NCBI GenBank assembly: GCA_021904315.1
Contig: CM038918.1
Location: forward strand, 20,149,303-20,213,302
DNA length: 64,000 bases
From: Sphagnum magellanicum
Lineage: Eukaryota; Streptophyta; Sphagnopsida; Sphagnales; Sphagnaceae
Reading direction: 5' to 3'
Shown here: positions 5,294-41,837 of the stretch, piece after piece
Numbering within the stretch: position 1 is the first letter of the stretch
Layout of the letters: every line of letters starts with the position of its first letter
Translations under genes and position numbers: made by a program
Notes under the pieces: model-generated
Told to the model about the DNA's origin: nothing
The model's input: the letters and a program-made list of their open reading frames with translations, nothing else
Database searches by the model: none

Positions 5294-8200
5294 TTAGTTT
5301 GTGGCTTCACTACTGTTCAATGCAATGTTGTTCTCAAGCTCATGACGTAGCTCGTTCAGATTATGATTTTTGTACTCAATAGGGATGTCAGGGCAGATCT
5401 TGGTCTCCGAATATTTTTGAACAAGATCCTCTTGATAATGAGCAAAGATGTATTCTCTCAACTTAACTGGTTCAGGTGAAGAAAATTCATTGGGAAGGAC
5501 CCATTCAGGAAAATGTTTTTCAAAATCTTTGTATGGCACATAAGAGTCTATCCCAAAGCGTGGGGCATTGAATCTGTGATCTCTAGGAAGTGCAACACAT
5601 TCGGTGCATGATTCAGGAACCAAGGACTTGGTATCAGTATTGTGATAACCAGCAAGACCTTTGGGTTGGTGGACTGTATCGTGCTTTCCGGAATGTCCTG
5701 AGGAATGAATACATGTGACAGTACATAAAGGACACATGTGTTCACATCGAGGTCGTGCACTTTCTGATTTGCAAATTATCATTCTCGATTTCACCTTTTT
5801 TACCAGCTCGGAAATTGATGATGTGAGATTAGGTTGGAAGTTATTGATTTCTTCACCAACCTTTTGCCCAACTGCGCTAAAATCAATGACATCTTCAACT
5901 TGAGAATATACATCCACAAGAGAGATGTTTTTAGCAAGTTCTGGAGATGTCTTGCAAAGCAATTCTTTCAAAGTGTCATGAAAGAGAATAGATTTTTGCA
6001 GAGCGTTTTGAACTCGTGCTGCAGAAGCTGAAAGCTCAACGGCACGTTTGATTTCTTCCACAAACCAAGACCAAAGCTGATTTTGTTCCAAGGTCTTGTT
6101 GAGTGCCTCCTGGATTTGTATGCCTACAACCCTTTCATGATGCAAAGTCCCATTTGCAACACATGTGAGAAGTTCATCTATGTTTCCCTCCTCGATGAGG
6201 TTGACAAGGTAGAGGTCAAGATGTGCCTTCATTACCCTCCAATTGGTTACCCATGCCTCACCTTGCAACTGGTCACAAACTCTCTTTGTTAGTAGAATCT
6301 TGAAAGACTCCAAGAGATTGTTGTTTAGAAGGTTTACAACTTCATCAGACAACACCTTTGTTCCTCCAACACGATTTGCACAATTTTGGAAAAATTGCCA
6401 AAGTCGGGCATGTTCTGTCTCCAACCTTTTTGCCACATTGTGATGCTTATCCCATTCAAGTTGAATGGCTTGCAACCTCTGGGTGAGTAAATCCTTTGCA
6501 AGATTATGCCAAGTCAGTTTCACGAATTCATCTTTGCCCGCGGTCAACCTCTCAGTGAGCTGTTTCACCTCCAAAACTAGGTGAACTGCGTATTGCTTGG
6601 TGCCTTCCAAACAAATTTCCACCTTGGTGGTCAACGCATTGCGAATATGTTCTTCCTCTTTGATAGTCAGCTCCGACATAGTCAGCTCTTGGAGCATTCG
6701 CCGCACATCGCATCGTATTGGGATTTCTGAATTGGCTTCACTTTCAATGAAAATAAGCCAACGACCAACCACCGGGTATTTTTGATATTGTTGTAACACT
6801 CTCTCATGTATTGTAGGTTCCTCAGCTGGATACTTCTCTTTAGCTTCTCGCAAAATGCGCTTGAAAATATTGTTCTCAAAATGGTCCTTCATTTTGGTTT
6901 CTCGATCCTTTGCAGTGAGATCCTCAGAATAGCGCTTAGCATCCAATTCAATCTCCACTCGGATCTTGTTGTTATAGTCTTTAACAACACTGTGAAACTT
7001 GACGACACCGTCAACACAGTCTTCAAGTCCCTTCATCCATTGTCTTTTTTGGTGAGAGCAAAAATCACCCCAGTGGCTAGTCTCCTCAACCTTCCATTTT
7101 TGGCATTGTTTCTGTTGTAGAATCTTGTCTACTTCTCTTGTCTCCTCCTTGATAGTGTCTTCCACCTTGGATTTTAATGTTTGCATCAAGCCTATGGCAG
7201 ACATTTCAAGGTTGCTTCTGATGCCACCTTGAAGTCTACCTTCCAATATCTCCAACTCCTCCAACCACTTATGTCCAACTATTTGTCGGCAACGCGCCAA
7301 TTTTGTTTGAAGCTCATGATAATGTGCGTACTCAATACGATGCAAAAACGCAAATTCAAAATTCCCATCAGCGATACATTCCCAAACCATGCAGAGGTAC
7401 TTTGTCCATGCCTTTAATCCATGACTTTCCCAACCTCCATGCAAAACACGATTGTTGATGTACTTTCGCAGCTTGACCACCTTGTTGCCGTATTCGTCAT
7501 CAGGAACATCAAATGGTGGTACGTTGCTTTTCTTCAAGTTACCAAAGAATTTCACATCACTCTTCTCCTCATCCGAATCAATCCTGAACTTTTGAAGCGC
7601 ATCCAAGGTTGAAGGAGTTCGTCGTGCTTGAGAGCCTCCCTCTTCCACTTCATTAATCCGCAGATTTGCAATTTCATGAGAAGCTTGACGCAAGTCTTCT
7701 TGGAGCTTCCGTTGGTTCATCAACAACTTCTTGGTATCATTTGTGTCAACACTTCTGTACACAAAGAACAGTTTTGCCTGCATCTGACCTCCAATCTCTT
7801 CAGCCATAGCAGATCCTTTGAATGCTAATAATACTTCTTTCAAGCCCATGTCTTCTTCATTTGCAACCGTTACTGTGCAAGCATCCACTGGAAGAACGGT
7901 AAATATTGCCAAACGGTTGTCGTGTAACTCTGCACCCTTGAGGCCAAAATATTCAGGGGCCCTTATCCCCTCTGTATCTAGTAGGAGCACGTAGTCATAG
8001 TCTGACCATTCGGACTTAACAACCTGAAGATAGACCCCACGTGTACATTGGCCTGCACTAGTCTTGAGTTGGGTGCCAAACATGAGATTCAACAAAGTGG
8101 ATTTGCCGCTGCTTTGTGCTCCTATGATGCTCAGCACAAGTAGCTTCGGATCATGCTCTCGTACAGCATGCAAGCATTTGTTTAGCTCGAGCAAGACTGT

Positions 8201-9914
8201 CTCCACCCACAGTTTGTGAAACATGGCTACCTCTCCATCTAGGATCTCTAATGGAAAGCCATCTACCAAGTGTTGAGCTGCTAGCATTGGGAGGTCCCCA
8301 TTCGTGGAAGGATCTGTAGCAAACATGTGGCTCAATTCACGCCATAGGTGCTCCAACCCTAGCATCTGATCCATTTGCTCTCCTTCAGCACAATAGTACA
8401 TTTGCTTCAACTCCAAGTTTTCTGGCTGTTGCTGAAATGCGTCAAAGGCATCATCTACCTTCTTCGCAGCTTTTTCAAGCGTGGGCCGCAGCTTCTTATT
8501 CATTGAGAGTTGGAATTGCACAATCCCAATCTTCCGTTTCAGACAATGCTTCTCCTTGAGCAATTGTATGAAGTCCGCAAGAATTGGCAGTCTCATGACA
8601 TTATCTGCAACACTTGCACGGTACTCCTTCTCTTGTTGAATTTGGTTCTGCCTCTGCTTCAAGCCTGCCCGCTCTCCTTTCAGATTCAAAAAAATTCTTT
8701 GCTTCCCTGGCAAAGCTTTTTTGCAGCAGAAAATCATCCTTAACTCTCGCAAGGTCAGTTCCATCAAGATGCGTAACATTGGATGTGGTCACCTTCGGAT
8801 TCAAGAGCTGAATTTGATGTGGGAGGCATTCTCTCAAACTTGTTGCCCCACCCTTGCTGCCTTTGAACTTCTTCTTTGAGATTGCATTCATCAAGGATTT
8901 GACTATATCTCTAGTCAAATTCTTGAATGAACCGCATATCATGTATTCGCCGTTCTTGTTGCTACTCCTCCTCCCTGTTGAGTTGATATTCCAGTAGAGG
9001 ACATGCTGATGCTCTCCAACCCATGAGAGGACTCTTGGCTCTTGAGTTGGCTCTGTTTCCACGATGACAATATCCGCAACCTTCTCCAAAAACTCTCCCA
9101 GCTGGTCATGATCCCCCCAAACACAAAGCACCAGGCACGTCATGTAATTACGTGCTTCATCTCCTGGTGTCGCCAGAAAACCAACTCCAACCTCTACTAT
9201 GGGGCCGTCTCCAGTATCGCTTTTGCTATGCTTACTTGAACTGACAATTCATTACATCACTTGCCATGTCTGGGGTCTCACGACTAGATAGGACCTTTCT
9301 GTCTGAAACGAAGACTACACGAGGCAAGTTTCTATCCTCAGATATAGACAGTATTTCTTGGTTTGCTAATTTGACTGTCACAAAGTCAAGCACATCCCCA
9401 AGATACCTCCAGCCATGGCTCAGGTGATGAATGATTTGTTCAGTTTTGAAATGTGTATAGTAGGTATTGCTGTGTGAAAGGAGAAGTGGCACAGAACATC
9501 GTTGATCAAGTAGTAACTGGAATATTGCAATTTTTGCAGGCAAGTCAGAGTTGATCAACAGCTGCACCAAAATCTCAAATGAAGAGAAATAAGGAGGACC
9601 AACATTTGGAGTATCTTCATCCGTATTGCCTTCCCTGTCATTACCAGCGGCAACTACAACAGAGAAGTCAAAGTCATCAGGGGTGTCAGTCTCCTCGATG
9701 TGGGACCAAGTTAGTTTGGTGTTGTTGTACCCGGTTGGCTTGCTCAATCCTGCTGATGCAAATGGCTCCATTCCATGTCTCAGGCAATCTAGCATCCTCC
9801 TATGTGGATCCTCAAAATTCTGTAACTGTCGATCAACCATTACGTCACCATTGAATGTGTACTTGGGTAAATGTCGTGGTACTACAAATGTTTCACAGGG
9901 ATATCCGGAAGCAT
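5294..9914 (-). pseudogene. VLIG-type very large GTPase exon, copy 1, two frameshifts
   Basis: This is the paralogue of the intact exon at 30,113-34,695. The GTPase core is visible: a P-loop reading GAQSSGKST (about 8,090-8,130), the switch Thr in QCTRGVY, and DTEG in LLLDTEGIRAPEY (about 7,970-8,000). The C-terminal Cys/His-rich tail (CEHMCPLCTVTC...H) is present. Two deletions relative to copy 2 break the frame: 2 bp near 9,237, giving a stop immediately at 9,232-9,234, and 8 bp near 8,683. The pieces 9,232-9,914, 8,684-9,235 and 5,294-8,683 are each open. It also carries about 16 extra residues near 7,045-7,090 (WKVEETSHWGDFCSH) absent from copy 2 and lacks PMVM after GLKEVL. If spliced to the upstream kinase exon it would give the kinase plus about 227 residues. 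An assembly error is the main alternative. Confidence 0.85.
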
Positions 9915-10212
9915 CTGACACAAACACATTAGTGCACACCAATGAGAACTTGATCAAAGATCCTGTAACATGGAAGAGATCAGTTGACTACATATTTGTT
10001 CAAACCAAGTAATATGGAAGGTGCTGAGCGATAGAACAATCCAGGAATTTTTAAAGACAAAATATAGGCATGCAAATCTCACAAGTATGACTGAAAGGCT
10101 TTCAAAGTTTCTTGAATGTTCAGAGTAATGTTTAATTGTTCGGAATTTAAGTGAGAGTTTTAGCATTGCAAATCGTCCCAAACTTCTACCCTCTCTTGGC
10201 CGACTATCTTAC
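9915..10212 (-). other. Predicted intron joining kinase and GTPase exons, copy 1
   Basis: On the minus strand the kinase frame runs to TTG-AGA-G followed by the donor GTAAGATA. The acceptor TTTGTGTCAG precedes ATGCTTCCGGATATCC of the GTPase frame. Both boundaries are phase 1, so splicing restores G+AT (Asp) and an open junction L-R-D-A-S-G-Y. Without splicing the kinase frame stops shortly after the donor, at 10,160. The same arrangement occurs in copy 2 with a 292-bp intron. Confidence 0.7.
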
Positions 10213-11689
10213 CTCTCAATTTTGTTGCCACATCGCTTATCATGATAACGCCTTGAAAATACCGGAGCTCTGCGCATATCTCTGAGAATGATGGCCTCCT
10301 ATTGGCTTCAGCATCCCAACACCGCTCTATCAAGGACGATAAGAACACGGGCAGGGTAACCGGCAAAACCGGCCTCTCACCTGCCTTGACCTTGCGTCTC
10401 ACCTCAGTAGTGCTCTCTGTATCTTCAAATGGTAATTTTGCAGTGAGAATCTCAAAGCACGTAATCGCATAGCTATACACGTCTGCCTTGAACGGGTAGC
10501 GACATTCGTTTGGATCCGACTCTTCAAACAGTTCAGGGGCCATCCATCGAGTTGTCCCCCTGTTGGCCGTTTGGATGGAACATGTAGCGCTAGCCTGTTT
10601 TATCTTCGAAAGCCCAAAATCTGTTACTTTGACCTGCACATAACCTGCATTCTCCATACCCAAGATTTCTAGAGGATTGATGAGAATGTTCATAGACTTG
10701 AGGTCCCGATGTGCAACCCTTTTCTCGTGTAGACATTGCATACCTTCGGCTATTTGTAGCATAATGTCCAATGCTACAGGAAGCTCCAATGACTCCCCAC
10801 ACTGCTCAATGTGCTCAGTTAGGTTTTCCTGCATGAGCTCCATGACAAGTGAACTTTTCTTGGCAATACAGTGACCAAATACTTGCACAACGTTGGGGTG
10901 AGAAAGACCTGCCAAGATCTCCACTTCATGCTCCAAGCTACGATTGCACATAAAGTCTTTTCGTGCACAACGTTCATTCTTCCAACTTACCTCATACACC
11001 GTCCCATAACCCCCACTGCCGATTTTCTTTTTCCGAGTGAGCTCTTGTGGGTCTATGCTCAACAGGTCCAATGTCTTCATCTTCCGCTCATCGTTCAGAG
11101 GAGCACTGATCTCCAACTTCGAAGTGCTTGCTACGCTGTCTTGAACCACGGCTTGTGTATTGTTTGATAGCTTGGGCTGGACCATTGTTTCGGAGCTGTC
11201 GCGATGATCTAGAGCGTGATACCACAGCAATACATTGCGAATCTCTTCCACCTTGATTTTGCACTCAACAGCTCCAAAGCCTTCGATATTCTTAGTGACA
11301 TACTGGTCAAACTTAGTTGCCATAACAGCCAATCTACAATCCAAACAGATGGCTGTACACCAATCAAGCTTAAAAAGCACCTGAGCACAAGCTTCGTTGA
11401 TGTTTGTTAGCTCCATTGTAGCCTTGGGCGTGCAACAACTGTGTATGATGGCCTCCGCATCCTTGACTGTACGATACAATTGCTGAAGAGCGGCTTTACA
11501 CCGTTGTGTGAAGGTTGTGAGTTCCTCACAAGATAGAGACTCCAAGTCCTCTCCTATACGGCTCATTGTCTGTAGAAGCTTCTCCTTCAAGAACTTGCAC
11601 TGACCCTTGTTGAGTTGCACCAACTGAGTTTTCTCAGTTTCAGCAAGCACTTTCACAACGTCCCTTGAGAGCCGGAGGTAATCTTCCAT
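10213..11689 (-). CDS. MLKL-like helical-bundle Ser/Thr protein kinase exon, copy 1
   Basis: This large exon (1,477 nt) encodes about 492 residues from MEDYLRLSRD. The first ~150 residues are all-helical and resemble the DUF1221/four-helix region of plant MLKL-type kinases (pattern V-L-N-K-x-QC near the start, ELYR-like QQLYRTVKDAE). A low-complexity linker follows, then a kinase domain with the glycine loop IGSGGYGTVYEV, Lys in CARKDF, HRDLKSMNIL, DFGLSK and GTTRWMAPE. All residues needed for phosphotransfer are present, whereas canonical plant MLKLs are mostly described as pseudokinases. The 5' edge is an acceptor (TGCATGCAG|ATGGAAG) and the 3' edge a donor (GAG|GTAAGA), so this is probably an internal exon of a kinase-GTPase gene. 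A stand-alone reading runs 10,160-11,695 (511 aa). Confidence 0.88.
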
Positions 11690-16413: not shown

Positions 16414-16789
16414 CATCCGTGCCGTGCCCCATGATGTAATTAATGTGAATCACACTATGACATTCCTAAGAACACCCTAGCTATTCACCTCTTTTATTAA
16501 TTAGGTGAGGTGCCTCCCAATTTTGTTGTTTTTTTTTTCACAAAAGTTCCAAAACAATTGCAGGTCCTGAAACCCAGGTCCTGAGAGTGAAACCCAGTGC
16601 CCGTTTATCGAGGTCTTGAATCCCAGGTTCTTAGAGTGAAACCCAGTGTCCGTTTATCGAGGTCCTGAAACCCAGGTCCTCATAGCCAAATACCGAGGTC
16701 CTCAAACCCAATGTCCTGAGAGCCAAATGCAGCAACGCGGGCTTGCGGGCATGGGCGAATTGTGTCCGACCGACACGGGTACCCACTAG
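16414..16789 (+). mobile_element. Helitron 3'-end fragment (376 bp)
   Basis: This matches 4,185-4,560 of the full element and ends GGGTACCCACTAG followed directly by TTTTCATAATTCC. In copy 2 the corresponding point reads TTCAAATTTTCATAATTCC, which fits an original A|T insertion site with 5' flank TTCAAA, now found inverted next to the 5' end at 16,256. Confidence 0.88.
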
Positions 16790-27700: not shown

Positions 27701-28540
27701 TAATATATACATATTAAAACTACCTTATAGTAATTATAATCCATTATTTCAGACTATTACATATCCTATATTATAATCAAATCGATTATTTGAATAAAAT
27801 GTACCCTATTTAAAAAATTTACCCAATAATCAATATATTGCATCCTATATTTTTATTCATGTATTTTTTACTTTTTTTTTACTAGTGTCCCCCATTTTGA
27901 AATTATTATTTTTGGAGATTTAAAATAGTGTTTATGAGGATTTTAAATAATGTCTTTTTGAGATTTGAAATAGGGCAAAATCAAAGGTTTGCAAAGGTGA
28001 CAATAGGCATTCAAGGTGGTAGCTACAATTTTGAAAACTCTAGACATTAAACCAGGCAATTATGAAAAAAAAGAAGGTTTTGATCCTTGAGCTCTTGAGA
28101 CATTTAGTGTAGATTATGGTTTAGAAATAAGCTAATTTGTATTAGTTTAAGATTTTAAAAACATGTTAATCATCTTTTCTTGGATAAAAGTTTAATTTTC
28201 TTTTTTTGGCATAGTCCATTTTAATAGTTTGTATGTTGGAACTAGAACATGGGTTATGGAACCAGGAACTGAAATCGGCCTAACTTGAAAATTAAAAAAA
28301 GAAATGATATTGGAACAGACCCCTAATTAAACAACTGGAATCAGGCCCCATATTTGAAAAAGAAAGGAACCAAAATCAAACTGAAATTGATCCCTTAAAG
28401 AATGTTAAGACTTGGAATTGAGGGGTTCCCCTAGAACTAGGCAACTGGCCAACATGGGTCCCCCCACCCAGAAGCTTTAGCCATCTTAGGACACAAGGAC
28501 AACTTTCTCACAAGCCTAAACATACGTAGATCATAAGGGG
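24725..28540. other. Unique spacer between the two duplication copies
   Basis: This stretch has no counterpart elsewhere in the window. It contains a TA microsatellite (24,751-24,780), a decayed retrotransposon gag (24,840-25,904), ATTT tetramers (26,260-26,285) and T/G-rich sequence with degenerate TTTAGGG-like words (27,390-27,560). No intact gene is visible. Confidence 0.6.
24840..25904 (-). pseudogene. Decayed LTR-retrotransposon gag region
   Basis: Read on the minus strand, 25,904 to about 25,572 begins MSLDDESTTTQPERRYQ. A second frame, 25,627-25,022, contains LREFKATFSTVVCELE, YEALHVYEQHSPRILG and ETLKMFYRRLFKLKKD. The second frame continues past its stop with SITDLEAAHQYLCMLE, another stop, then VYNISEKLELAHAHYE. 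This pattern is one I associate with gag polyproteins of plant retrotransposons. The frame change plus two stops mark it as dead. No zinc knuckle, polymerase or LTR pair was found nearby, so the superfamily is undetermined. Confidence 0.6.
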
Positions 28541-29124
28541 TAGGAGAGGGATTCTTCTTATGCCCAGTAGTTAAAAGTTGGAGGGATCTTACACCTAAAA
28601 GTAGGCATATGATCTTTCCATTATTACTGGGTATGCTTAAGGTTCATCTTTTATGGATGTAAGAAGTGTTATGCAATTTTTAGATTTTGTTAATCACCTC
28701 CTGGAGTTACAAGTTTGAAAAAAGAACGAAATCAAGAAACCTCTACTTCCAGTTTATTTTGAATTTTGTTAGAATTAGAGAACCACTACCTTTGGTTTTT
28801 TGAGTATTTTCAGAATCAAAATAACAATTCCAGGTTTTTGAAAATTTTCAAAGAAGTGACAGAATTTATGAAAGAACCCAGCTAATGGTCAGAACCAATT
28901 CTATGAACGTTGGAGAACTGCCAATCAATGGTCAAAACAGTGCTTTGATTTTTGAGAACCATTGGTCAAGGGATAAATATGCTTTACCCTTACCCGCTGG
29001 TTCTAGAAATAGAGCTACTCCCAATATTGGATAGGTATATGGTGCGTTCCAAATTCAGGAAATCTCTGAGATTGCTTTACAACGCAAGACAAATAGTAGC
29101 CAGCAGAAAATAAATTTACCTCTC

Positions 29125-29299
29125 AGGCCACTTGGCCCAAAACTCTATGCCTAGTTTGTTTTCCATTTAAATGTTTATTTTCAAAGTTCAACAGCAGTGT
29201 TAGCCAATCTTCCTAGCATGCTAACACTGCTGTTGAACTTGAAAGTAAACATTCAAATGGAAAACAAACTAGGCATAGAAATTTGAGCCAAGTGACCTG
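29125..29299. repeat. Long near-perfect foldback (hairpin), copy 2
   Basis: This is the counterpart of 2,295-2,461. Arms of about 80 bp flank the same 15-base loop (29,205-29,219). The outer arms pair better here, for example CTATGCCTAGTTTGTTTTCC against GGAAAACAAACTAGGCATAG without mismatch, where copy 1 has two mismatches. Conservation of the inner stem in both copies is seen directly. Function is unknown. Confidence 0.8.
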
Positions 29300-29366
29300 C
29301 CCTCTCATGAAAGTATCACATATAGTTAGGTGACACCTTCCTGAGACAGAATTAGTCCCTCCAATT

Positions 29367-30112
29367 AAACCCTAAACCCTTAACAATTAGAGATAAAATA
29401 TAACCTACAGGCTTCACTAAAGAAGGTGAAGGTACTAGGTGTTGGTTCATCCTAGGGCCTAGAGCCCAAGCAGAAGGAGTTTTGCGTTCGCTGGAGTGGT
29501 GCGGGGAGGGACTATGTCAGGATTCAGCACACCTTTTGCCCACTTTGTTGGATCATTAACCGCACAAGAGAAGCAATGATGATGATGTTACACGTAACGT
29601 GCAAACGCATGCCCACCAACCTCTCCCCATTACTTTATTTGTTGCCATATAAAATTACACAACTACTTGAAACCATACCCACTCCAAAATCTCACCCCTA
29701 ACTCCACTCATACATTCACCAGCTAAACTGTCTTAAAAAAAAAAAAAACAAAACCCTCTATTTATGTAATGTACATTTTCCCTACCCATATACCCATATA
29801 TATAGTATGGATTACATGTGCATTTGCTGACATCGTCACTTCCTCCTGCACTCTTTCATGTAATACTAGAAGATTTAACTTATATTAACTATTGACATTT
29901 TAGAGATCTGTAGCCAACTTGGAACATACTATTATCATTCTATGATTCTGGCAACTATTGAAAACGGGACTTTAGTTTTATTTGTATCTACACCTTACAT
30001 TTATCATTCCTCTTCTGATTGCTTTTATACGCTAGTAGCATATGATTCAATAACCGGACTTTTCTGCAACAATTCTGTTGCACAAAAGGAATCATATTAG
30101 TTTGTGGCTTCA
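29367..30112. other. 3' flank of the GTPase gene, copy 2
   Basis: This is non-coding sequence nearly identical to 4,561-5,293. It is the probable 3' UTR and terminator region of the minus-strand gene. Its left edge marks the empty site for the Helitron of copy 1 (CTCCAA|TTAAACC). Confidence 0.55.
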
Positions 30113-33100
30113 CTAACTGTTCAATGCAATGTTGTTCTCAAGCTCATGACGTAGCTCGTTCAGATTATGATTTTTGTACTCAGTAGGGATGTCAGGGCAG
30201 ATCTTGGTCTCCGAATATTTTTGAACAAGATCCTCTTGATAATGAGCAAAGATGTATTCTCTCAACTTAACTGGTTCAGGTGAAGAAAATTCATTGGGAA
30301 GGACCCATTCAGGAAAATGTTTTTCAAAATCTTTGTATGGCACATAAGAGTCTATCCCAAAGCGTGGGGCATTGAATCTGTGATCTCTAGGAAGTGCAAC
30401 ACATTCGGTGCATGATTCAGGAACCAAGGACTTGGTATCAGTATTGTGATAACCAGCAAGACCTTTGGGTTGGTGGACTGTATCGTGCTTTCCGGAATGT
30501 CCTGAGGAATGAATACATGTGACAGTACATAAAGGACACATGTGTTCACATCGAGGTCGTGCACTTTCTGATTCGCAAATTATCATTCTCGATTTCACCT
30601 TTTTAACCAGCTCGGAAATTGATGATGTGAGATTAGGTTGGAAGTTATTGATTTCTTCACCAACCTTTTGCCCAACTGCACTAAAATCAATGACATCTTC
30701 AACTTGAGAATATACATCCACAAGAGAGATGTTTTTAGCAAGTTCTGGAGATGTCTTGCAAAGCAATTCTTTCAAAGTGTCATGAAAGAGAATAGATTTT
30801 TGCGGAGCGTTTTGAACTCGTGCTGCAGAAGCTGAAAGCTCAACGGCACGTTTGATTTCTTCCACAAACCAAGACCAAAGCTGATTTTGTTCCAAGGTCT
30901 TGTTGAGTGCCTCCTGGATTTGTATGCCTACAACCCTTTCATGATGCAAAGTCCCATTTGCAACACATGTGAGAAGTTCATCTATGTTTCCCTCCTCGAT
31001 GAGGTTGACAAGGTAAAGGTCAAGATGTGCCTTCATTACCCTCCAATTGGTTACCCATGCCTCACCTTGCAGCTGGTCACAAATTCTCTTTGCTAGTAGA
31101 ATCTTGAAAGACTCCAAGAGATTGCTGTTTAGAAGGTTTACAACTTCATCAGACAACACCTTTGTTCCTCCAACACGATTTGCACAATTTTGGAAAAATT
31201 GCCAAAGTCGGGCATGTTCTGTCCCCAACCTTTTTGCCACATTGTAATGCTTATCCCGTTCAAGTTGAATGGCTCGCAACCTCGGGGTGAGTACATCCTT
31301 TGCAAGATTATGACAAGTTTGTTTGAAATTTTTGCCTTTGCCCTCGGTCAACCTCTCAGTGAGCTGTATCACCTCCGAAACTAGGTGATCTGCGTATTGC
31401 TTGGCGCCTTCCAAACAACTTTCTACCTTGGTGGTCAACGCATTGTGAATATGTTCTTCCTCTGTGATAATCGGCTTTTGGCCAGGGATCATTTTCCACA
31501 TTGATTTCACTAAGGTGGTGCAGTTCTTTGTCATTGAAGAATTGGCTTCACTTTCTGTGAAACTGTGCTTAGAACCAACCACCTTGTGTTTTTGATACTG
31601 TTTTAACACTCTCTCAGGTATTGTAGGTTCGTCAGATGGATACTTCTTTTCAGCTTCTCCCAAAATGCGCTTGAAAATATTGTTCTCAAAATGGTCCTGC
31701 ATTTTGGTTTGTCGATCCTCTGCAGTGAGATCCTCAGAATAGCGCTTGGCATCCGATTCAATCTCCACTCGGATCTTGTTGTTATAGTCTTTGACAACAC
31801 TGTCAAAGTTGACGACACCGTCAACACAATCTTGAAGTCGCTTCATCCATTGTCTTTTTAGGCATTGTTTCTGTTGTAGAATCTTGTCCACTTCTCGTGT
31901 CTCCTCCTTGATAGTGTCTTCCACCTTGGATTCTAATGTCCGCATCAAGCCTATGGAAGACATTTCAAGGTTGCTTGTGATGGCACCTTGAATTGTACCT
32001 TCCAATATCTCCATCTCCTCCAACCACTTATGTCCAACTATTTGTCGGCAACGCGCCAATTTTGTTTGAAGCTCATGATAATGTGCGTACTCAATACGAT
32101 TCAAAAACCCCAATTCAAAATTCACATCAGCGATGCATTCCCAAACCATGCAGAGGTACTTTGTCCATGCCTTTAATCCATGACTTTCCCAACCTCCATG
32201 CAAAACACGATTGTTGATGTACTTTCGCAGCTTGACCACCTTGTTGCCGTATTCATCATCAGGAACGTCAAATGGTGGTTTGTTGCTTCTCTTCAAGTTA
32301 CCAAAGAATTTCACATCACTCTTCTCCTCATCCGAATCAATCCTGAACTTTTGAAGCGCATCCAAGGTTGAAGGAGGTTGTCGTACTTGAGAGCCTCTCT
32401 CTTCCACTTCATTAATCTGCAGATTTGCAATTTCATGAGAAGCTTGACGCAAGTCTTCTTGGAGCTTCCGTTGGTTCATCAACAACTTATTGGTATCATT
32501 TGTGTCAACACTTCTGTACACAAAGAACAAATTTGCCTGCATCTGACCTCCATGTTTTTCAGCCATAGCAGATTCTTTGAATGCTAACATCACCATGGGC
32601 AATACTTCTTTCAAGCCACTGTCTTCTTCATTTGCAACCATTACTATGCAAGCATCCACTGGAAGAACGGTAAATGTTGCCAAACGGTTGTCGTGTAACT
32701 CTGCACCCTTGAGGCCAAAATATTCAGGGGCCCTTATCCCCTCTGTATCTAGTAGGAGCACGTAGTCATGGTCTGACCATTCGGACTTAACAACCTGAAG
32801 ATAGACCCCACGTGTACATTGGCCTGCACGAGTCTTGAGTTGGGTGCCAAACATGAGATTCAACAAAGTGGATTTGCCGCTGCTTTGTACTCCTATGATG
32901 CTCAGCACAAGTACCTTAGGATCACGCTCTAGTACAGCATGCAAGCATTTGTTTAGCTCGAGCAAGACTGTCTCCACCCACAGTTTGTGAAACATGGCTA
33001 CATCTCCATCTAGGATCTCTAATGGGAAGCCATCTACCAAGTGTTGAGCTGCTAGCATTGGGAGGTCCCCATTCGTGGAAGGATCTGTAGCAAACATGTG

Positions 33101-34695
33101 GCTCAATTCATGCCATAGGTGCTCCAACCCTAGCATCTGATCCATGTGCTCTCTTTTAGCACGATAATACATTTTCTTCGACTCCAAATTTTCTGGCTGT
33201 TGCTGAAATGCGTCAAAGGCATCATTTTCCTTCTTCGCAGCTTTTTTAAGCGCGGGCCGCAGCTTCTCATTGATTGAGAGTTCGAAGTCCACAATCCCAA
33301 TCTTCCGTTTCAGATAATGCTTCTCCTTGAGCAATTGTATGAAGTCCGCAAGAATTGGCAGTCTCATGACATTATCTGCAACACTTGCACGGTAATCCTT
33401 CTCTTGTTGAATTTGGTTCTGCCTCTGCTTCAACTCTGCCGGCTCTCCTTTCAGTTGTAGGGATTCAAAAAAAATCTTTGCTTCACTGGCAAAGCTTTTT
33501 TGCAACAGAAACTCATCCTTAACTTTCTCAAGGTTAGTTCCATCAAAAAGAGTAACATTGGGTATGGTCACCTTCGGATTCAAGAGCTGAATTTGACGTG
33601 GGAGGCATTCTCTCAAACTTGTTGCCCCACCCTTGCTGCCTTTGAACTTCTTCTTTGAGATTGCATCCATCAAGGATTTGCCTATATCTCTAATCAAATT
33701 CTTGAATGAACCGCATATCATGTCATTGCCGTTCTTGTTGCTACTCCTCCTCCCTGTTGAGTTGATATTCCAGTAGAGGACATGCTGATGCTCTCCAGCC
33801 CATGAGAGGACTCTTGGCTCTTGAGTTGGCTCTGTTTCCACGATGACAATATCCGCAACCTTCTCCAAAAACTCTCCCAGCTGGTCATGATCCCCCCAAA
33901 CACAAAGCACCAGGCACGGCATGTACTTACGTGCCTCATCTCCTGGTCTCGCCAGAAAACCAACTCCAACCTCTACTATGGGGCCGTCTCCAGTATCGCT
34001 CTTACTATGCTTACTTATGAACTGACAATTCATTACATCACTTGCCATGTCTGGGGTCTCACGACTAGATAGGACCTTTCTGTCTGAAACGAAGACTACA
34101 CGAGGCAAGTTTCTATCCGCAGATATAGACAGCATTTCTTGGTTTGCTAATTTGACTGTCACAAAGTCAAGCACATCCCCAAGATACCTCAAGCCATGAC
34201 TCAAACGATGAATAATTTGTTCAGAATTGAAATGTGTATAGTAGGTATTGCTGTGTGAAACGAGAAGTGGCACAGAACATCGTTGATCAAGTAGTAACTG
34301 GAATATTGCAATTTTTGCAGGCAAGTCAGAGTTGATCAACAGCTGCACCAAAATCTCAAATGAAGAGAAGTAAGGAGGACCAGCATTTGGAGTATCCTCG
34401 TCTGTATTGCCTTCCCTGTCATTACCGGCTGCAATTTCAACAGAGAAGACACAGTCATCAGGGGCGTCAGTCTCCTCGATGTGGGACCAAGTTGGTTTGG
34501 TGTTGTTGTACCCTGTTGGCTTGCTCAATCCTGCTGATGCAAATGGCCCCATTCCGTGTCTCAGGAAATCTAGCATCCTCCTGTGTGGATCCTCAGAATT
34601 CTGTAACTGTCGATCAACCATTACATCACCATTGTATGTGTAATTGGGTAGATGTGGTGGTACTACAATAGTTTGACAGGGATATCCGGAAGCAT
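30113..34695 (-). CDS. VLIG-type very large GTPase exon, intact (copy 2)
   Basis: This single exon encodes about 1,527 residues and is open throughout. Numbered from the Met at 34,717, a P-loop GVQSSGKSTLLNLMFG lies near residue 610, the switch Thr in QCTRGVY soon after, and DTEG (LLLDTEGIRAPEY) near 656. Long charged helical stretches follow. The C-terminal ~200 residues carry a Cys/His cluster (CEHMCPLCTVTC then H-rich) and a block with PKGLAGYH, ESCTECV, YVPYKDFEKHFPEW. That combination is characteristic of the interferon-induced very large GTPase (VLIG/GVIN/URGCP) family, whose animal members are large cytosolic or nuclear GTPases. The exon starts after acceptor GTGTCAG, phase 1, matching the kinase donor, so the Met at 34,717 is probably not a start. 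It stops five codons earlier than copy 1 because of one extra base (AGTTAG). Confidence 0.9.
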
Positions 34696-34987
34696 CTGAC
34701 ACAACAGATTTGTGCACACTAATGAGAACTTAGTTAAGATCCTGTAAGATGGAAGAGATCGGTTGACTACATATTTGTTCAAACCAGGTAATATGGAAGG
34801 TGCTGAGCCATAGTTCTATAATGTAGAGAATTTTAAAGAAAAGATATAGGCATGGAAATGTCACAAATATGAATGAAAGGCTTTCGTCGTTGCTTGAATA
34901 TTGAAAATAATGTTTTAACTGGTTAGAAAACAGTTTCAGCATTGCAAATGTCCCAAACTTCTACCCTCTCTTGGCCGATCATCTTAC
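34696..34987 (-). other. Predicted intron joining kinase and GTPase exons, copy 2
   Basis: The donor is GAG|GTAAGATGATC and the acceptor TTGTGTCAG|ATGCTTCC, both phase 1. The length is 292 bp against 298 bp in copy 1. Both splice sites and their phase survive in the two paralogues, although the intron body differs by substitutions and small indels. Confidence 0.7.
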
Positions 34988-36464
34988 CTCTCAATTTCGT
35001 TGCCAGATCGCTTATCATAAGAACGCCTTGAAAATGCCGGAGCTCTGCACATATTTCTGAGAATGATGGCCTCCTATTGGTTTCAGCATCCCAACACCGC
35101 TCTATCAAGGACGATAAGAACGTGGGCAGGGTAACCGGCAAAACCGGCCTCTCACCTGCCTTGACCTTGTGTCTCACCTCAGTAGTGCTGGCTGTATTTC
35201 CAAATGGTAATTTTGCAGTGAGGATCTCAAAGCACGTAATCGCATAGCTATACACGTCTGCCTTGAACGGGTAGCGACATTTGTTTGGATCCGACTCTTC
35301 AAACAGTTCAGGGGCCATCCATCGAGTTGTCCCCCTGTTGGCCGTTTGGATGGAACATGTAGCGCTAGCCTGTTTTATCTTCGAAAGCCCAAAATCTGTT
35401 ACTTTGACCTGCACGTAACCTGCATTCTGCATACCCAAGATGTCTAGAGGATTGATGAGAATGTTCATAGACTTGAGGTCCCGATGTGCAACCCTTTTCT
35501 CGTGTAGATATTGCATACCTTCGGCTATTTGTAGCATAATGTCCAATGCTACAGGAAGCTCCAATGAGTTCCCACGCTGCTCAATGTGCTCAGTTAGGTT
35601 TCCCTGCATGAGCTCCATGACAAGTGAACTTTTCTCGGCAATACAGTGACCAAATACTTGCACAACGTTGGGGTGAGAAAGACCTGCCAAGATCTCCACT
35701 TCATGCTCCAAGCTACGGTTGCACATAAAGTCTTTTCGTGCACAACGTTCATTCTTCCAACTTACCTCATACACCGTCCCATAACCCCCACTGCCGATTT
35801 TCTTTTTCAGAGTGAGCTCTTGTGCGTCTATGCTCAACAGGTCCAATGTCTTCATCTTCCGCTCATCGTTCAGAGGAGCACTGATCTCCAACTTCGAAGT
35901 GCTTGCTACACTGTCTTGAGCCACGGCTTCTGTATTGTTTGATAGCTCGGGCTCGACCATTGTTTCGGAGCTGTCGCGACGATCTAGAGCGTGATACCTC
36001 AGCAATACATTGCGAATCTCTTCCACCTTAATTTTGCACTCAACAGCTCCAAAGCCTTCGATATTCTTAGTGACATACTGGTCAAGCTTACTTGCCATGA
36101 CAGCCAATCTACAATCCAAACAGATGGCTGTACACCAATCAAGCTTAAAAAGCACCTGAGCACAAGCTTCGTTGATGTTTGTTAGCTCGAATGTAGCCTT
36201 GCGCGTGCAACAACTGTGTATGATGGCCTCCGCATCCTTGACTGTACGATACAACTGCTGAAGAGCGGCTTTACACCGTTGTGTGAAGGTTGTGAGTTCT
36301 TCACAAGATAGAGACTCCAAGTCCTCTCCTATACGGCTCATTGTCTGTAGAAGCTTCTCCTTCAAGAACTTGCACTGACCCTTGTTGAGTTGCACCACCT
36401 GAGTTTTCTCAGTTTCAGCAAGCACTTTCACAACGTCCCTTGAGAGCTGGAGGTAATCTTCCAT
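34988..36464 (-). CDS. MLKL-like helical-bundle Ser/Thr protein kinase exon, copy 2
   Basis: The exon has 1,477 nt, the same length as in copy 1, and encodes about 492 residues from MEDYLQLSRD. The N-terminal ~150 residues are predicted helical and resemble the DUF1221-type bundle of plant MLKL kinases. The kinase domain has IGSGGYGTVYEV near residue 222, Lys in CARKDF, HRDLKSMNIL near 326, DFGLSK near 357 and GTTRWMAPE. The C-lobe ends with RCWDAETNRRPSFSEI, a TKL/Raf-like signature. The exon is followed by a donor in frame with the GTPase exon, so the likely product is a kinase-GTPase fusion of about 2,020 residues from MEDYL. Read without splicing, the frame ends at 34,923 (515 aa) with a tail that differs from copy 1 because of a 1-bp indel inside the intron, as expected if that tail is not coding. 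Confidence 0.88.
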
Positions 36465-36748
36465 CTGCATGCATAAGGTGTCAAAGACTCATCAATTATC
36501 TCCGAGCTGGATTCACACTATTCACAACGTGAACCCATTCTTTGCAAGGTTGGGACATTATTTTTTGGGAATCTAGACATATAACACGATATCGAAGGAT
36601 TGACAAACTATCCATATGGAGACCTGCATGCCATGTAAAGCTTAACAGCTTTGCAACAATTCATGGACTTTGACATTCTAGGAGCTTCAACAACAACGGA
36701 TCTCTACCAGGCCTCACGGAGCACAGGACTTTTGGTCTTTTGCAGTAC

Positions 36749-36947
36749 CTGACAGGAGCTCTGACTGGAATTGATGGTGGAGACAGAAAGTGGAGGTGGT
36801 AGGTGAAGCCAATTTCTGCCGCAGGCTGTAACCGCCTGCATCACTGCTGCCCACATGAGTTCTGCACAGAGCAAGTTGTCCTCCATGATATAAGTAGCAT
36901 CTGAATTCCGAACTCTAGGCAGTTCGTCTTCACCTCCAGAACAAAAC
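36749..36947 (-). other. Predicted 5' exon of the kinase-GTPase gene, copy 2
   Basis: The 199-nt exon has the same length as in copy 1, reads CSGGEDELPRVRNSDATY...SSCQ and ends at donor TGTCAG|GTACTG, phase 0, compatible with the kinase exon at 36,464. Copy 2 has extra in-frame Met codons (YIMEDN, ELMWAA) besides the shared MQAVTACGRN, so its start could lie earlier. A separate upstream exon, probably UTR, ends at 37,411 with GGCCCAG|GTATGTAC, leaving a 463-bp intron in both copies. Confidence 0.5.
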
Positions 36948-37411
36948 CTGCAGTTAGAATTTAAGTTGGAGTTAAGCTTCCAAGCAAGCAAGATAGATCG
37001 TAGATGATTACACCTCACAATCTGGCATTATTGACGTGTGTAAATATGCTTTGAAGTCTCCACTTAATATCTGCTCATTAGCAGAATTACATATGCTATT
37101 CATGATCGTTTTGAGAAAGCATGACTTGTTGGAGATTGGAAGGATTTTGGCCCAGACTACAGCGATCCAGCAAAAGGTAACACAACGCTATCATCTCATG
37201 ACCTGCTCCTAGCCAAAGACCCATGGCCCATCTCAATGCTTAACCCACTCAATTTGTAAGGCTGTCTAGATCTGTTGTCAGTGCTCAACAATTAATCAAG
37301 ACAACAGTTTGTCGTGGGTCTGAACTTATGCTCAAGGGACTTTTTGCATCTTGCTGTTCAACGAAAAGAACACGTTGCAAACGTTAACGCACAAATTTGA
37401 TAGTACATACC

Positions 37412-38881
37412 TGGGCCAAGTGTAGTATACTTTGTAGCAGAATCGATATCATCTGGGAGTAGAGAAACACGTATCTAGATCTCGTTGTAAAGCCTCAGAA
37501 ATCTCCTCAGTCTGGTTCGCTCTCTCCACTAGCTTCTTCCATCGTAGTAGCTTGCAAGTTTTCTCTCAAGAGCAGGCAGCTGCTGGCTCTTTAACAATCA
37601 TTCGCAGTCAAAGCATTACTCTTATAGGCAGTGAGCTTACAATTGAAACCTATCACTAGTTCTGCCTTTCATTGTACGCAAGAGACCCAACAGACCCAGT
37701 TTCCGACAGAGCATCTTGTGCTAGACAGTAGCCTTTCCTATTTATTCTCAAGGGTACCTAATTGTTACTTCTATTAATTAGATGCAGGCCACCTAAATTC
37801 TGTCCAGAAACCAGCAAAGAAACCGCCTTCTTCGTCACAGAGAGGTTTGAGATTTCCAAGGGGTTAGATCACTCTGATCTCATTCTCTTGAGCCCACTGG
37901 CCTCTCTTCTCAAAGTCTTCAAACCCACACAAATCCTGAATCACATCGGACTTCCACGGGAATTTTAGTTCCAACTTACATATAGTACTGTAAATCCGTC
38001 AGCTCACACAAATCATACGATCCGGTTTCCTTGACACCATCGCTCCATTTGACAAGACAATAGACAGGAATAGAACATATCGACTTCCCCCAGTTACTGC
38101 TTCAAGAATCCTTACAAAGAATTACACCCATCCTGTGTATGAACGACGTTGTAGACTCAATGGACTGTTGCAATCCTTAGGAGTTCCAAAAATCAGGGTA
38201 CTTGCTCTTGAAAAGCAAAACAATAAAACCCAGATACAAACAAAACTCAAACACGAACTTTTGAAAAGACTTTTGAGGAAAGTTGCTGGCCGCTCTCGAG
38301 ACCTCTAGAACTTCTCATCATTCTCCGTTCTCAACCATCAAACCCAGTTCTAAAATAGATACTCTTCTTTGTTCATTCTCCCTTCTCAACCATCAAACCC
38401 AGTTCTAAAATAGATACTCTTCTTTGTTCATTCTCCCTTCTCAACCATTAAACCCAGTTCTTAAATAGATACTCTTCTTTGTTGACTGCTGGGAGGTTTA
38501 AGATAAAAACTACTTTCTGTTCACACTCAAAACCCTAAAGCTAGAAATTTGTTACAGTCGGTCCAGAAGCAACTTGACACTTTTCATGTCTTCTCTTTCG
38601 CGAGAAATGAGGCGGTTGCAGTTCGTGACCACCATTCAACTTGTACCATATTCCCCCCACCACCAAGACCTTGGGATTTTTCCCAGTGACATCACTGGAT
38701 TTTGATTGATCAACAACTATCTTTTAAATGAATTGAACCAAGGCGTTGTGGTATCTGATAATACAGAGAATTATCAGGATCATTTGCCTTAGTGTTAGTG
38801 GTCCATGAGTGGGGGCACATAGTGTGATTCATAGTAATTAGATCATGGGGGCGCTCACAACTTTTTTTTAATTTTTTAAAG
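37412..38881. other. Upstream region of kinase-GTPase gene, copy 2, with 55-bp triplication
   Basis: This sequence is homologous to 12,641-14,177 and presumably contains the promoter of the minus-strand gene. A 55-bp unit reading TTCTCAACCATCAAACCCAG... is present three times in tandem at about 38,320-38,485, once in copy 1. The 180-bp unit that is doubled in copy 1 is single here (about 38,118-38,302). No confident regulatory motif can be named. Confidence 0.6.
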
Positions 38882-40891
38882 GAGCCATATTGAAAGGCCT
38901 ATCAGCAATTCTTTTGGAACATTGGGCATGCCCCCAATAGAAGCACGTTTGGACCCCCAGTTGCAAAATAGAGACAAATGTGCACCCTTGAATTTTACCT
39001 TTTTAGATTATATCCAGGGGAGTTGAACTTTGGGCAAAGCATATGGCATAAAACCTAGTTGTTATTGGGAACACTTTGGGAATTTGAGAACTGTTTCAGA
39101 ACTTTATGGAATACATTGGGAACAAAGGAACAAAACTAAAAATATCCCTGTTCCCCCCTTCAAAAGAGAAAAACTGGACCGTTCATGAGTGCATGCTGAG
39201 CCTTCCCATTGGCTGCATGAAATTTCTATTTCCAAATTTTGTTGGTCATCATTCTTGGGCTAATGGCAGAGGCAGAATTTTGGGGACTTAGTATATTTGG
39301 CACCCCATAGATTGATATTCAGTAATGTTCAAATTTTCATAATTCCATTAACCAATTACAGGATTAGGCGTGAATACTGGATGTGAACTATATGGAAATA
39401 CTAGGGACACTTTAACTGGAAAGTCCTAAGTTTTGAAACAATTCTCAAACTAAAATCATGTCTGAAACAGCTTTCTTTTGCCATCATTGTCCAATGGATG
39501 AATGAAGATAGAGATCATGCCAAATCGGGTCAGATAGTTGGTCTAAACTATTTGTAAACCATATTAAAGTATATTGGTGGTAAGGCCTATAACTGAGCTA
39601 CTCCTCCTAGCATTATTGAGCCAGGGTGGACCAGCACATAGACCAGTTCCTTCACCTTCTTGAGTAAGGTCTCATAGAGGCTATATTTAATTCAGTAAAT
39701 GTTAAATTTGGGCTCAGAGACCCTGATTTTGTATTTTGATTTTGGAGTTAAGATCCTGCATGCGTGGCCGTGCAGTGAAAAGCCTCATTAGAATGGGGCA
39801 CTCCTGAAATCGGGGCTTGCCCTTGGCTCTTGCCTTGGGCACTGGCCCTTACTTGGGGAATGCCCCATCCCTCTGGCCTTACAAACCACATAAATACCTC
39901 CTTGGATTTTATAGTGTATTTACTATAGATTGTCTTGCAAAGCATAAAAACTAGTGGGGCATTTTGAAAAATCAAACTTCAGGCCTTACTTACCAAGCAA
40001 CCTCTTTGGATTTTTCTAGTGTATTTAGAGAGCATGTTGCAGAGCATAAAACCCTGTGGGGCATTTTGAAAAATCAAACGCCTGCAAGCATGGGCATTCC
40101 AATTTCCAGCATTTCATGCTTGTCATTTGTCCCCAAGATACCCCATGGGAACCCTGCAGGTGGTCCCTGGACATCATGAAATTTTTTTTTGAAAAAAATT
40201 TGACTCCAGTCTATACCAGTCATTTTTTTTCAATTTTTTCATGTCACACCAAAAGTGAAGATCGACCTCCAGAAGGTTTGGCCAAATCTGGCTACAAGTC
40301 AAATAGGCGAGTAGAAAAATTTAAGAATATTACTGGATGTTGGTGAACCACTTTAATCTATCAGCTAAATATGGAGATTTCAAAAGAGGCAGGCTATAAA
40401 TATTCTCAGATTCTCCAAAAATCTTGACGAACCCCAAACATTTTTACTAAAAATATGGCACTTTTTTTGGGGATTTTTCAAAAAACTGCACTAACCATGT
40501 TGCTGGGCACCTTTTTTTTAATAGCTAAGTGGCGAATTTTCGCCACAAAAAAAACGCTGGTCTATAGACTCAGTAAAGCCCTCAGCCACAGTTTTCACAA
40601 GAATCAGCCTTGCACTCAGCTCCACCTCATGTGGGTCCTTATTCTGGTAAAGCTCAGGGCCTTGAAGTTTACTTTACACATAAAGATCTTGTCATTTATT
40701 GTTCACCCACTCCCTCAGTGCACCCCAGTGGGTCCGGTGTGGGACAAACTGCCACAAATGCTGCAATGGGATATAACGCAAAGTATTTATCTTTATGGCA
40801 ATAGACTCTAGTTTCAACTCATTGTACAACTCTTCAATGACAAATTGTTTCACCCATATCCCACAAAGATGCACTAAAGTATTTGTCTTTA

Positions 40892-41837
40892 CGAGTGGGT
40901 GCCCGTGACCTTCGGCCACTGTGAAGTCCCTCGGTTTTTTTAAACTTGGTTCGCATTTTAGTTTTTTTTAGAAACTTTTAACTTTTTCTTTTTTTTTTAT
41001 TTGTTTTTTATTTTTATTATTATTTTGTGATCATCCAGTCGGACGGACATTTCATCCATCCCCTTAATTGGGATGGACAGTAGCTAAAAGAAAAAAAGCT
41101 TCCCCAAAATTCGTCCCGTCATCAAGCCGGACGGACATTTCATCCATCCCCTTAATTGGGACGGACAGTAGCTAAAAGTAAAAAAAGGTAGTCTTGGTCA
41201 ATACAAAAAAAGAAAAAAATTGATTCTGGGCTGTCCAAGGCCTAAATATTTTTGTTCTGGTCTTCCCCTAAATCCGTCCCGTCATCAAGCTGGACGAACA
41301 TTTCATCCATCCCCTTAATTGGGACGGACAGTAGCTAAAAGAAAAAAAAGGTAGTCTTGGTCAATACAAAAAATAAATAAAAATTGATTCTGGGCTGTCA
41401 AGGCCTAGATATTTTTTTTCTGGTCTTCCCCTAAATCTGTCCCATCATCAAGCCGGACGGACATTTCATCCGTCCCCTTAATCGGGACGGACAGTAGCTA
41501 AAAGAAAAAAAAGGTAGTCTTGGTCAATACAAAAAAAAAAAAAAAAAGATTCTGGGCTGCCCTGCCCTGCCCTGCCCTGCCCTGCCCTGCCCTGCCCTGC
41601 CCTGTCCTGCCCCTGCCCTGCCCTGCCCTGCCCTGCCCTGCCCTGCCCTGCCCTGTCCTGCCCCTGCCCCTGCCCTGCCCTGCCCTGCCCTGCGCTGTTT
41701 GTCGTGACAGACAGACAGACAGACACCTCGGTTCAGGTCCTCGAAGGTTTTGAGGACCTCGCTCGTTTCAGGACCTCGTCTTGTTTTTGTCGCCACAGAC
41801 AGACGGACAAACACACATGTTGCTTTTATATATAAGA
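40892..41837 (-). mobile_element. Small non-autonomous Helitron (946 bp), reverse orientation
   Basis: On the minus strand it begins TCTTATATATAAAAGCAAC at 41,837 and ends GGGCACCCACTCG at 40,892. A hairpin with different sequence but the same position (GTGGCC-GAA-GGTCAC) lies just before the 13-base tail. The terminal CTCG is a variant of the expected CTAG. Flanks are ...TTTGTCTTTA and TGGTGATAG..., matching the uninterrupted TATCTTTATGGCAATAG of the neighbouring unit, so insertion was between A and T. The interior holds four repeats of a segment containing GGACATTTCATCC and GACAGTAGCTAAAAG (from about 41,032, 41,121, 41,283 and 41,446) and the CCCTG array. Confidence 0.85.
41559..41695 (+). 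repeat. (CCCTG)n pentanucleotide microsatellite
   Basis: About 27 near-uninterrupted CCCTG units with a few single-base variants (CCTGT, CCCCTG), inside the small Helitron. It is followed by GACA tetramers (41,707-41,726). It produces an artificial AGQGR-repeat open frame on the minus strand. Confidence 0.95.

Follow-up and report, generated by a model that had tools for sequence, protein, structure and literature searches.

Do two long open reading frames that lie side by side on the minus strand in Sphagnum magellanicum encode two proteins, or the two parts of one? The window analysed here, a stretch of 64,000 nt from contig CM038918.1 (assembly GCA_021904315.1, positions 20,149,303–20,213,302 of the forward strand), carries a GTPase frame at 30113–34729 (1538 codons) and a kinase frame at 34923–36488 (521 codons), both of which an earlier note had described. 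That note proposed that splicing fuses an MLKL-like kinase to a VLIG-type giant GTPase, giving a single protein some 2,020 residues long. We call this locus (30113..36464) copy 2; a tandem copy, copy 1, lies in the same window, and a third kinase and VLIG locus, C8, is found on another contig of the same assembly.

Gene structure of the locus

Joining 36464–34988 to 34695–30113 on the minus strand gives copy 2 a single open frame of 2,019 codons, or 2,021 residues from a possible alternative ATG at 36470 (MQMEDY; orthologues start with MQTE). In copy 1 the joined frame meets a stop at residue 719 and does not reach the G domain. Four junctions were tested for copy 2 and only 34988/34695 leaves the frame open; the acceptors tried at 34739 and at 34717, like a donor displaced by one base, interrupt it and were rejected. 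The exons and introns of the two window copies are as follows.

34988..36464, minus strand: copy 2 exon 1 (head exon), bundle then kinase (open frame, PF07714/PF00069, structure model with mean pLDDT 82.3)
34696..34987, minus strand: copy 2 predicted phase-1 intron, 292 nt, GTAAGA...GTGTCAG (joined frame, copy comparison, P0008 with the same junction)
30113..34695, minus strand: copy 2 exon 2 (giant exon, 4,583 nt including the stop), linker, VLIG/URGCP large GTPase and C-terminal part (open frame, Pfam, motifs)
10213..11689, minus strand: copy 1 exon 1, open (frame reading, copy comparison)
9915..10212, minus strand: copy 1 intron, homologous, with the same donor and acceptor (copy comparison)
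5294..9914, minus strand: copy 1 exon 2, its frame shifted by deletions near 9238 and 8684 (frame reading)

The donor reads GAG/GTAAGA and the acceptor TTGTGTCAG/AT (slashes mark the cut), both in phase 1 and both present in the two window copies, and comparison of the copies confirms what had been claimed of these sites. Counting both strands, the window has 18 copies of the string AGGTAAG against 7.2 expected, and a donor at most about 17 codons from the Pfam end of the kinase is therefore unlikely to be there by chance. After the acceptor 4,583 nt stay open as a single coding exon, as in the VLIG/URGCP GTPases. The GTPase frame has its first in-frame ATG about 25 codons after the acceptor; these codons are retained in P0008 and P0003, and their dN/dS is 0.48 against copy 1 and 0.28 against C8 (n = 25 codons). 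A plant protein with a kinase followed by a VLIG G domain, which the earlier note had advised looking for, was found in P0008, a predicted protein of Sphagnum jensenii whose kinase and GTPase are joined at exactly the residues of the copy 2 junction. The Rfam scan of window positions 29000–38000 gave no match. The identical junction of P0008, the conservation of donor and acceptor in their own families and the retained codons ahead of the ATG support the fusion, and a two-exon gene placing a kinase head and a VLIG GTPase in one predicted protein is very probable on these sequence grounds.

Read through unspliced after the kinase, the first ~50 intron nt would encode a tail, GK..GQERVEVWDDLQC-stop, and there could then be two separate genes, a kinase ending in this tail (GKMIGQERVEV...) and, with its own start further downstream, a gene for the GTPase only. 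The Sphagnum balticum protein P0006 is annotated as GTPase-only, and the tail occurs in all six matches of at least 73% identity (P0179–P0183 and P0185) and also in copy 1 and C8. However, the tail frame is lost in copy 2, the unspliced tails of copies 1 and 2 differing in frame by 1 nt as had been noticed earlier, the tail stop is lost in P0179, and in five relatives a similar stretch is located beyond an in-frame stop, so that its conservation does not require translation. The conserved tail was accordingly rejected as a sign of a separate kinase protein, an intron element being judged the better explanation. The codons kept ahead of the first GTPase-frame ATG and the recurrence of donor and acceptor, each within its own gene family, also count against two genes, which we regard as very improbable. 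A locus making both the fusion and a kinase-only retained-intron form, perhaps regulated by the conserved start of the intron, is an unlikely arrangement as well. In its favor, the alignment of copy 2 with C8 shows no substitution and one 1-nt deletion over the first ~50 intron nt, which is unusually conserved against a dS of 0.16–0.19 in long segments; yet copy 2 does not retain the tail frame, and tail-like stretches past stops are as expected of a splicing element or of one acting at the DNA level.

Head exon: helical bundle and kinase

The first exon of the predicted two-exon gene encodes two regions.

35958..36464, minus strand: N-terminal helical bundle, DUF1221/MLKL-NTD-like, model helices 4–169 (DUF1221 below cut-off, model helices, profile alignment)
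35040..35816, minus strand: protein kinase domain (Pfam extent) with GSGGYGTV, ARK, HRDLKSMN, DFG and APE (Pfam, motif reading)

The kinase domain (PF07714, 182 bits against a cut-off of 23.1) comes after the bundle in both Pfam and the structure model, as in plant MLKL, and with HRDLKSMN and DFG intact it is active-looking, as the earlier note had put it. DUF1221 matches in the bundle (21.8 and 23.1 bits) stay below the Pfam cut-off of 25, which is passed by one relative (P0065, 27.1 bits) and missed by another (P0199, 14.4 bits); RPW8 gives a sub-threshold Pfam match in the bundle (E 0.086). A head profile of 72 sequences aligns with chains 6lba and 6ka4 from the bundle through the kinase end. 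Foldseek and VIA-align with the head model returned kinases only and are uninformative on the fold of the bundle. In two chain searches 6ka4 ranked first and second and 6lba third in both; we take these chains to be Arabidopsis MLKLs. They share the order of helical bundle then kinase and carry HGEL/HGDL and GFG, whereas the Sphagnum head has HRDL and DFG, so the term MLKL-like stands for the sequence relationship and not for the pseudokinase feature. According to portions of the article on Pm13, an MLKL protein of a wheat relative, that protein retains its kinase residues, as the Sphagnum head does, and confers disease resistance (PMC10951266); because Pm13-type members keep HRD/DFG-type residues, the pseudokinase state is not treated here as defining plant MLKL. 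The closest relatives of the predicted head are the plant MLKL-type kinases, here with HRD and DFG intact, and it differs from these and other DUF1221 kinases in preceding a predicted VLIG GTPase of 1,527 residues.

The giant GTPase exon

Two features were located in the second exon.

32417..33439, minus strand: URGCP-type GTPase region, ORF residues 431–771 by Pfam (PF25683, motifs, structure model of 32030–33532)
30467..30553, minus strand: Cys/His cluster, RCEHMCPLCTVTC...H...H...HQP (motif reading, alignment of relatives)

The URGCP_GTPase domain (PF25683) scores 166.9 bits against a Pfam cut-off of 55, a P-loop GVQSSGKS starts at 32893 and DTEG lies at 32749, and the model of 32030–33532 resembles the GBP and atlastin large GTPases with modest TM-scores. 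Such a domain above cut-off, the giant open exon and the GBP/atlastin-like model are shared with the VLIG/GVIN/URGCP giant GTPases, from which the Sphagnum protein differs in having a kinase as its head. A second family, PF25496 (URGCP), matched the three animal- or MAG-derived VLIGs scanned (P0032, P0043, P0046) and gave no match at E 0.1 in the Sphagnum frames, which is weak evidence in so distant a relative. Human GVIN1 is predicted to have two large-GTPase domains in portions of its description (PMC11974893). No locus related to the GTPase was found in the viral or genome contigs searched, and the predicted product of the exon is closest to the VLIG/GVIN GTPases. Most positions of the Cys/His cluster are invariant in nine aligned relatives.

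Probable exchange of head exons

In the kinase-exon family 18 of the 20 loci read (the best 20 of 94 matches) carry an in-frame phase-1 G/GTA donor in the same position as here; once the three fusion loci are set aside, 15 of 17 do. In the genome's two other VLIG genes (L030 and L031) another 5′ exon is followed by a ~200-nt phase-1 intron, a TCAG/A acceptor and the giant GTPase exon. Since the donor recurs in the kinase family and the other VLIGs place another 5′ exon before their phase-1 intron and acceptor, an exon swap seems to have shaped the locus: a head exon with a phase-1 donor at its end would have come to sit before the giant exon, which opens with a phase-1 acceptor in this genome's VLIG genes, and replaced its usual 5′ exon. 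The points at which longer and shorter VLIG proteins part fall at one homologous place. That an assembly artefact set the kinase beside the VLIG exon is hardly credible; the tandem duplication is all that was found in its favor, and three loci, spread over two contigs of the assembly, show the same order, as does the predicted protein of S. jensenii. The longest contig is 35,874 for both P0003 and P0180, which suggests one common contig.

Three types of VLIG head were seen: the MLKL-type bundle-kinase (this locus, C8, P0008), a possibly MACPF-like head (P0015, P0022–P0024, L030, L031) and a class-3 lipase (P0030). The plant VLIGs P0015 and P0012 share the giant exon and phase-1 acceptor with L030 and L031, and the 5′ exon of all four encodes a different head from that of copy 2; the head of P0015 matches L030 at 89% and L031 at 54%. 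Calling these heads MACPF-like is weak: Pfam found MACPF in one of nine VLIG members (P0024, E 0.0071) and none in exon 1 of L030 or L031 or in P0032, P0043 and P0046, a PDB profile search with nine VLIGs returned GTPase-type chains and one portal protein (E 0.96) and no MACPF chain, and the pattern YxSH...GG, presumably the MACPF signature, occurs in 6 of 59 VLIG-search proteins, in P0026 outside its aligned head. All three kinds of head, MACPF and lipase included, have counterparts among immune or cell-death proteins. The VLIGs of mosses and other eukaryotes might form a receptor class parallel to the NLRs, a constant giant GTPase exon receiving heads by phase-1 exon swapping, a generalization that we offer tentatively and consider doubtful on balance.

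State of the three copies

Of the three kinase and VLIG loci only copy 2 is open throughout. Copy 1 retains both splice sites, but two deletions, of 2 and 8 nt, shift the frame of its GTPase exon, and its linker shows 80% amino acid conservation against 88–89% in the remainder of that exon. C8 lacks 747 nt spanning the P-loop, and with them the G domain, and has a further 5-nt deletion; copy 2 has a 51-nt in-frame deletion that takes out 17 codons present in copy 1, C8 and P0003. With dN/dS of 0.48–0.91 over long segments, these lesions indicate that some or all copies may be decaying. A genuine ancestral fusion gene that is non-functional in the present genome is nevertheless rather improbable, as copy 2 keeps its open frame with kinase and P-loop motifs, each of the three copies has an open kinase exon and no segment counted reaches a dN/dS of 1. 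The introns of the tandem copies diverge by 0.156, compared with 0.032 and 0.053 for the exons. This excess was dropped as proof of a non-coding segment, since the copy 1–C8 introns diverge by only 0.068; this is less than their exons and points to conversion or recombination.

Possible function and related immune systems

VLIG/GVIN proteins have been studied as interferon-induced GTPases of vertebrates. Portions of the GVIN1 paper state that no GVIN function had been reported earlier (PMC11974893), and GVIN1 coats bacteria (PMC12133148). The open-access literature gave nothing combining MLKL, VLIG and plants, and titles and abstract starts among the open-access matches listed named neither plant VLIGs nor a kinase-VLIG fusion. 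The predicted Sphagnum fusion looks like a candidate new kind of immune receptor arising from exon swapping. A plant VLIG with an MLKL-type kinase would unite two defence-type modules in one chain by way of whole exons of matching phase, and it suggests that plants may use a dynamin-like GTPase, besides NB-ARC, as an intracellular receptor switch.

We infer an immune or cell-death role, for which a clustering mechanism can be drawn by analogy. The dynamin-like GTPase would bind GTP, dimerise and assemble on a target surface, like animal GVIN1 and GBP1; the gathered kinase heads would phosphorylate one another or their partners, and the bundle would then signal or harm the membrane, with defence or the death of cells locally as the outcome, comparable to the way an NLR drives its head domain through NB-ARC assembly. 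We put this mechanism at slightly short of an even chance, while a two-exon gene of exon-swap origin acting by clustering is, as the best explanation overall, reasonably probable. Neither Sphagnum frame matched NB-ARC or LRR at E 0.1 in Pfam, and the protein is not classed as an NLR. According to portions of the report on moss Pkn-NLRs, a kinase of the same module is fused there to an immune nucleotide-binding protein, and in Nicotiana the response to the kinase head was modest and variable (PMC11218826). The TIR-NB-ARC-LRR-kinase proteins P0086 and P0087 share such a fusion of the same-module kinase, which is C-terminal in them, whereas in the predicted Sphagnum protein it is the head and the GTPase is of the VLIG type.

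Predicted Splice Joins Kinase and GTPase Frames

In the searched assembly (439 Mb, 31 contigs) the window corresponds to C12:20149303-20213302, and ORF reading together with Pfam places two long frames head to tail on its minus strand, one for a helical bundle and kinase and the other for a VLIG-type GTPase. The earlier note had predicted that the two are spliced together through phase 1 sites, and joining the donor to the acceptor does yield a single uninterrupted frame 2,019 codons long; counted from the ATG at 36470 it has 2,021.

Predicted splice sites of the fusion locus (copy 2), and its tandem copy
34988/34987, minus strand, donor of copy 2, phase 1
34696/34695, minus strand, acceptor of copy 2, phase 1, sequence TTGTGTCAG|AT
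~4700-12330, tandem copy (copy 1), 95% identical over 7.6 kb, inside a longer duplication

The finding is real and its interpretation as a predicted kinase-VLIG fusion is largely correct; known modules stand here in a new combination. P0008, a predicted protein of Sphagnum jensenii, carries a kinase and a VLIG-type GTPase domain (PK_Tyr_Ser-Thr 215-477, URGCP_GTPase 907-1252) and reads ...MISDLATKLR|DASGYPCQT..., with residues at the junction identical to those of the window. No second protein with this pair of domains turned up among the 59 matches listed in one search or the 120 of 1,023 listed in another, both searches having scored only the ~8,000 candidates with most words in common. Shorter and longer VLIG proteins diverge at one place, which matches the junction (P0011, P0014, and P0016 vs. 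P0015; likewise P0010 vs. P0012, P0020 vs. P0022, and P0003 vs. P0008), and we infer that the shorter ones are ORFs called without introns. The GTPase frame has its first in-frame ATG approximately 25 codons past the acceptor, and P0008 and P0003 share this stretch; its dN/dS is 0.48 against copy 1, which retains just 80% of the residues there, and 0.28 against the related locus on contig C8. The annotation of P0006 from S. balticum, which has no kinase, counts against the fusion.

Donor and Acceptor in Their Own Families

The kinase-head family is large, with 94 matches in the same genome, some being fragments of a single gene. Among the 20 best-scoring of these loci, 18 show an in-frame G|GTA directly past the kinase domain (GTAAG 7, GTATG 4, GTAAA 1, GTACA 2, GTAGC 4), the others being L015, with GGAAAG instead, and L029, with none. 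We take the recurrent GGTA as a donor because a conserved glycine alone would hardly yield it each time. URGCP_GTPase scores above cut-off at four places in the genome, of which two are outside the window, both on contig C6. Each C6 gene has a single 5′ exon encoding a different protein, followed by a phase 1 donor (CCTGAAG|GTACTT or CAAAAG|GTATTT), an intron whose length we place at 204 or 191 nt, and, ahead of the giant exon, the sequence TTATCAG|AG or TTGTCAG|AT as acceptor, to which TTGTGTCAG|AT in the window corresponds.

The Start of the Intron

A kinase-only product may also arise by intron retention. The unspliced kinase tail GK..GQERVEVWDDLQC counts against the fusion as well: it occurs in all six matches with at least 73% identity in a further protein search, with P0179 reading beyond the stop, and also in copy 1 and the C8 copy. 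Its frame is kept in copy 1 and lost in copy 2, which bears out the earlier claim that the unspliced tails are out of step between paralogues. The opening ~50 nt of the intron differ between copy 2 and C8 by a single 1-nt deletion and no substitution, against a dS of 0.16-0.19, and are thus more conserved than drift would give. Since a similar stretch follows an in-frame stop in five relatives (L014, L015, L017, L022, L023), we read it as an intronic element, not protein. A G-rich stretch of 21 nt, GAGAGGGTAGAAGTTTGGGAC or a variant differing from it at 4-6 positions, is seen at window 34987-34930 and in the introns of L010-L015, L017, L022, and L023. Of the 20 kinase-module loci read, 9 have it ~17-55 nt into the intron and 11 lack it; it beats 100 of 100 shuffles in each of the nine, and sits past an in-frame stop in five.

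Other Copies

Only one of the three kinase-VLIG loci, copy 2, is open throughout. The joined frame of copy 1 has a stop at residue 719. On C8 a kinase relative with 82% identity was found, and the 20 kb inspected there contain kinase and VLIG frames in the same order (DNA 86% identical), with a 5-nt deletion and with the 747 nt containing the P-loop missing. In the C6 gene L031 the reading frame shifts along the giant exon. Over long segments the tandem copies give a dN/dS of 0.71-0.91, and the comparison of copy 2 with C8 gives 0.48-0.62, a level due in part to the contribution of broken copies. The copy 1 intron diverges by 0.068 from the C8 copy and by 0.156 from its tandem twin, whereas exons show the reverse, which suggests conversion or recombination across loci.

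Head and GTPase Models

The head model (491 residues, mean pLDDT 82.3) has predicted helices within residues 4-169, followed by a kinase fold. Chains 6ka4 and 6lba, which we take to be Arabidopsis MLKLs although their database names say no more than "F22L4.1 protein" and "Protein kinase family protein", are among the top three in searches of solved structures. Both also align with a 72-sequence profile from the bundle through to the kinase end. The DUF1221 score of the head is narrowly below the Pfam cut-off. The catalytic loops differ, HGEL/HGDL with GFG in these chains but HRDL with DFG in the window head, which thereby resembles Pm13, described as an MLKL-type resistance protein that retains its catalytic residues (PMC10951266). 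P0065 of S. fallax is a bundle-kinase protein extended at its C-terminus by ~470 residues. Inspected by eye, this extension looks like a degenerate G domain, but its Pfam matches are all sub-threshold.

For the modelled piece of the GTPase, 501 residues long at a mean pLDDT of 84.2, the structural matches include an SMG1-8-9 complex chain, GBPs, Sey1p, and atlastins over part of the model, with query TM-scores mostly ~0.33-0.39, at which the predicted fold class is clear but fine detail is not.

Possible Origin and Working

An exon swap within the intron would have placed the head exon before the giant exon, and would preserve the frame because both are phase-1 bounded in their own families. 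The usual plant VLIG 5′ exon may, on weak evidence, be MACPF-like: Pfam MACPF appears in P0024 alone, under the cut-off (E 0.0071), and a YxSH...GG stretch, presumably the MACPF motif, occurs in P0015, P0022, P0023, P0032, and P0043. Pfam gave no MACPF in exon 1 of the C6 VLIG genes L030 and L031, nor in P0032, P0043, or P0046. P0030 carries Lipase_3 (231-325) before a VLIG-type GTPase, and P0086 and P0087, from S. compactum and S. troendelagicum, are TIR-NB-ARC-LRR proteins with the kinase module of the window head at the C-terminus. Together with the phase 1 boundaries and the possible MACPF-like exon, these suggest, without proving, a modular receptor family.

GVIN1 and GBP1 form coats on bacteria (PMC12133148), and GVIN1 is predicted to dimerise via its GTPase domains (PMC11974893). 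Two further sources assign plant MLKLs a role in TNL immunity (PMC9950082) and report a modest, variable response to a moss NLR kinase head in leaves vs. a reliable one to the wheat Tsn1 kinase (PMC11218826). By analogy, we infer that the GTPase would assemble on a target and thereby cluster the kinase/bundle heads, which would fit both halves of the protein.

Repeats Around the Loci

Window 1644-24724 and 28540-47069 form a tandem duplication (spacing ~23-25 kb, blocks 87-97% identical). Inverted repeats at 2532-4560 and 14187-16789 flank copy 1 (885 nt at 99.7%, 646 nt at 97.8%) and look like opposite insertions of one element; beside copy 2 no repeat block of that size was found. A tandem array with a 39-nt unit occupies 51973-53195.
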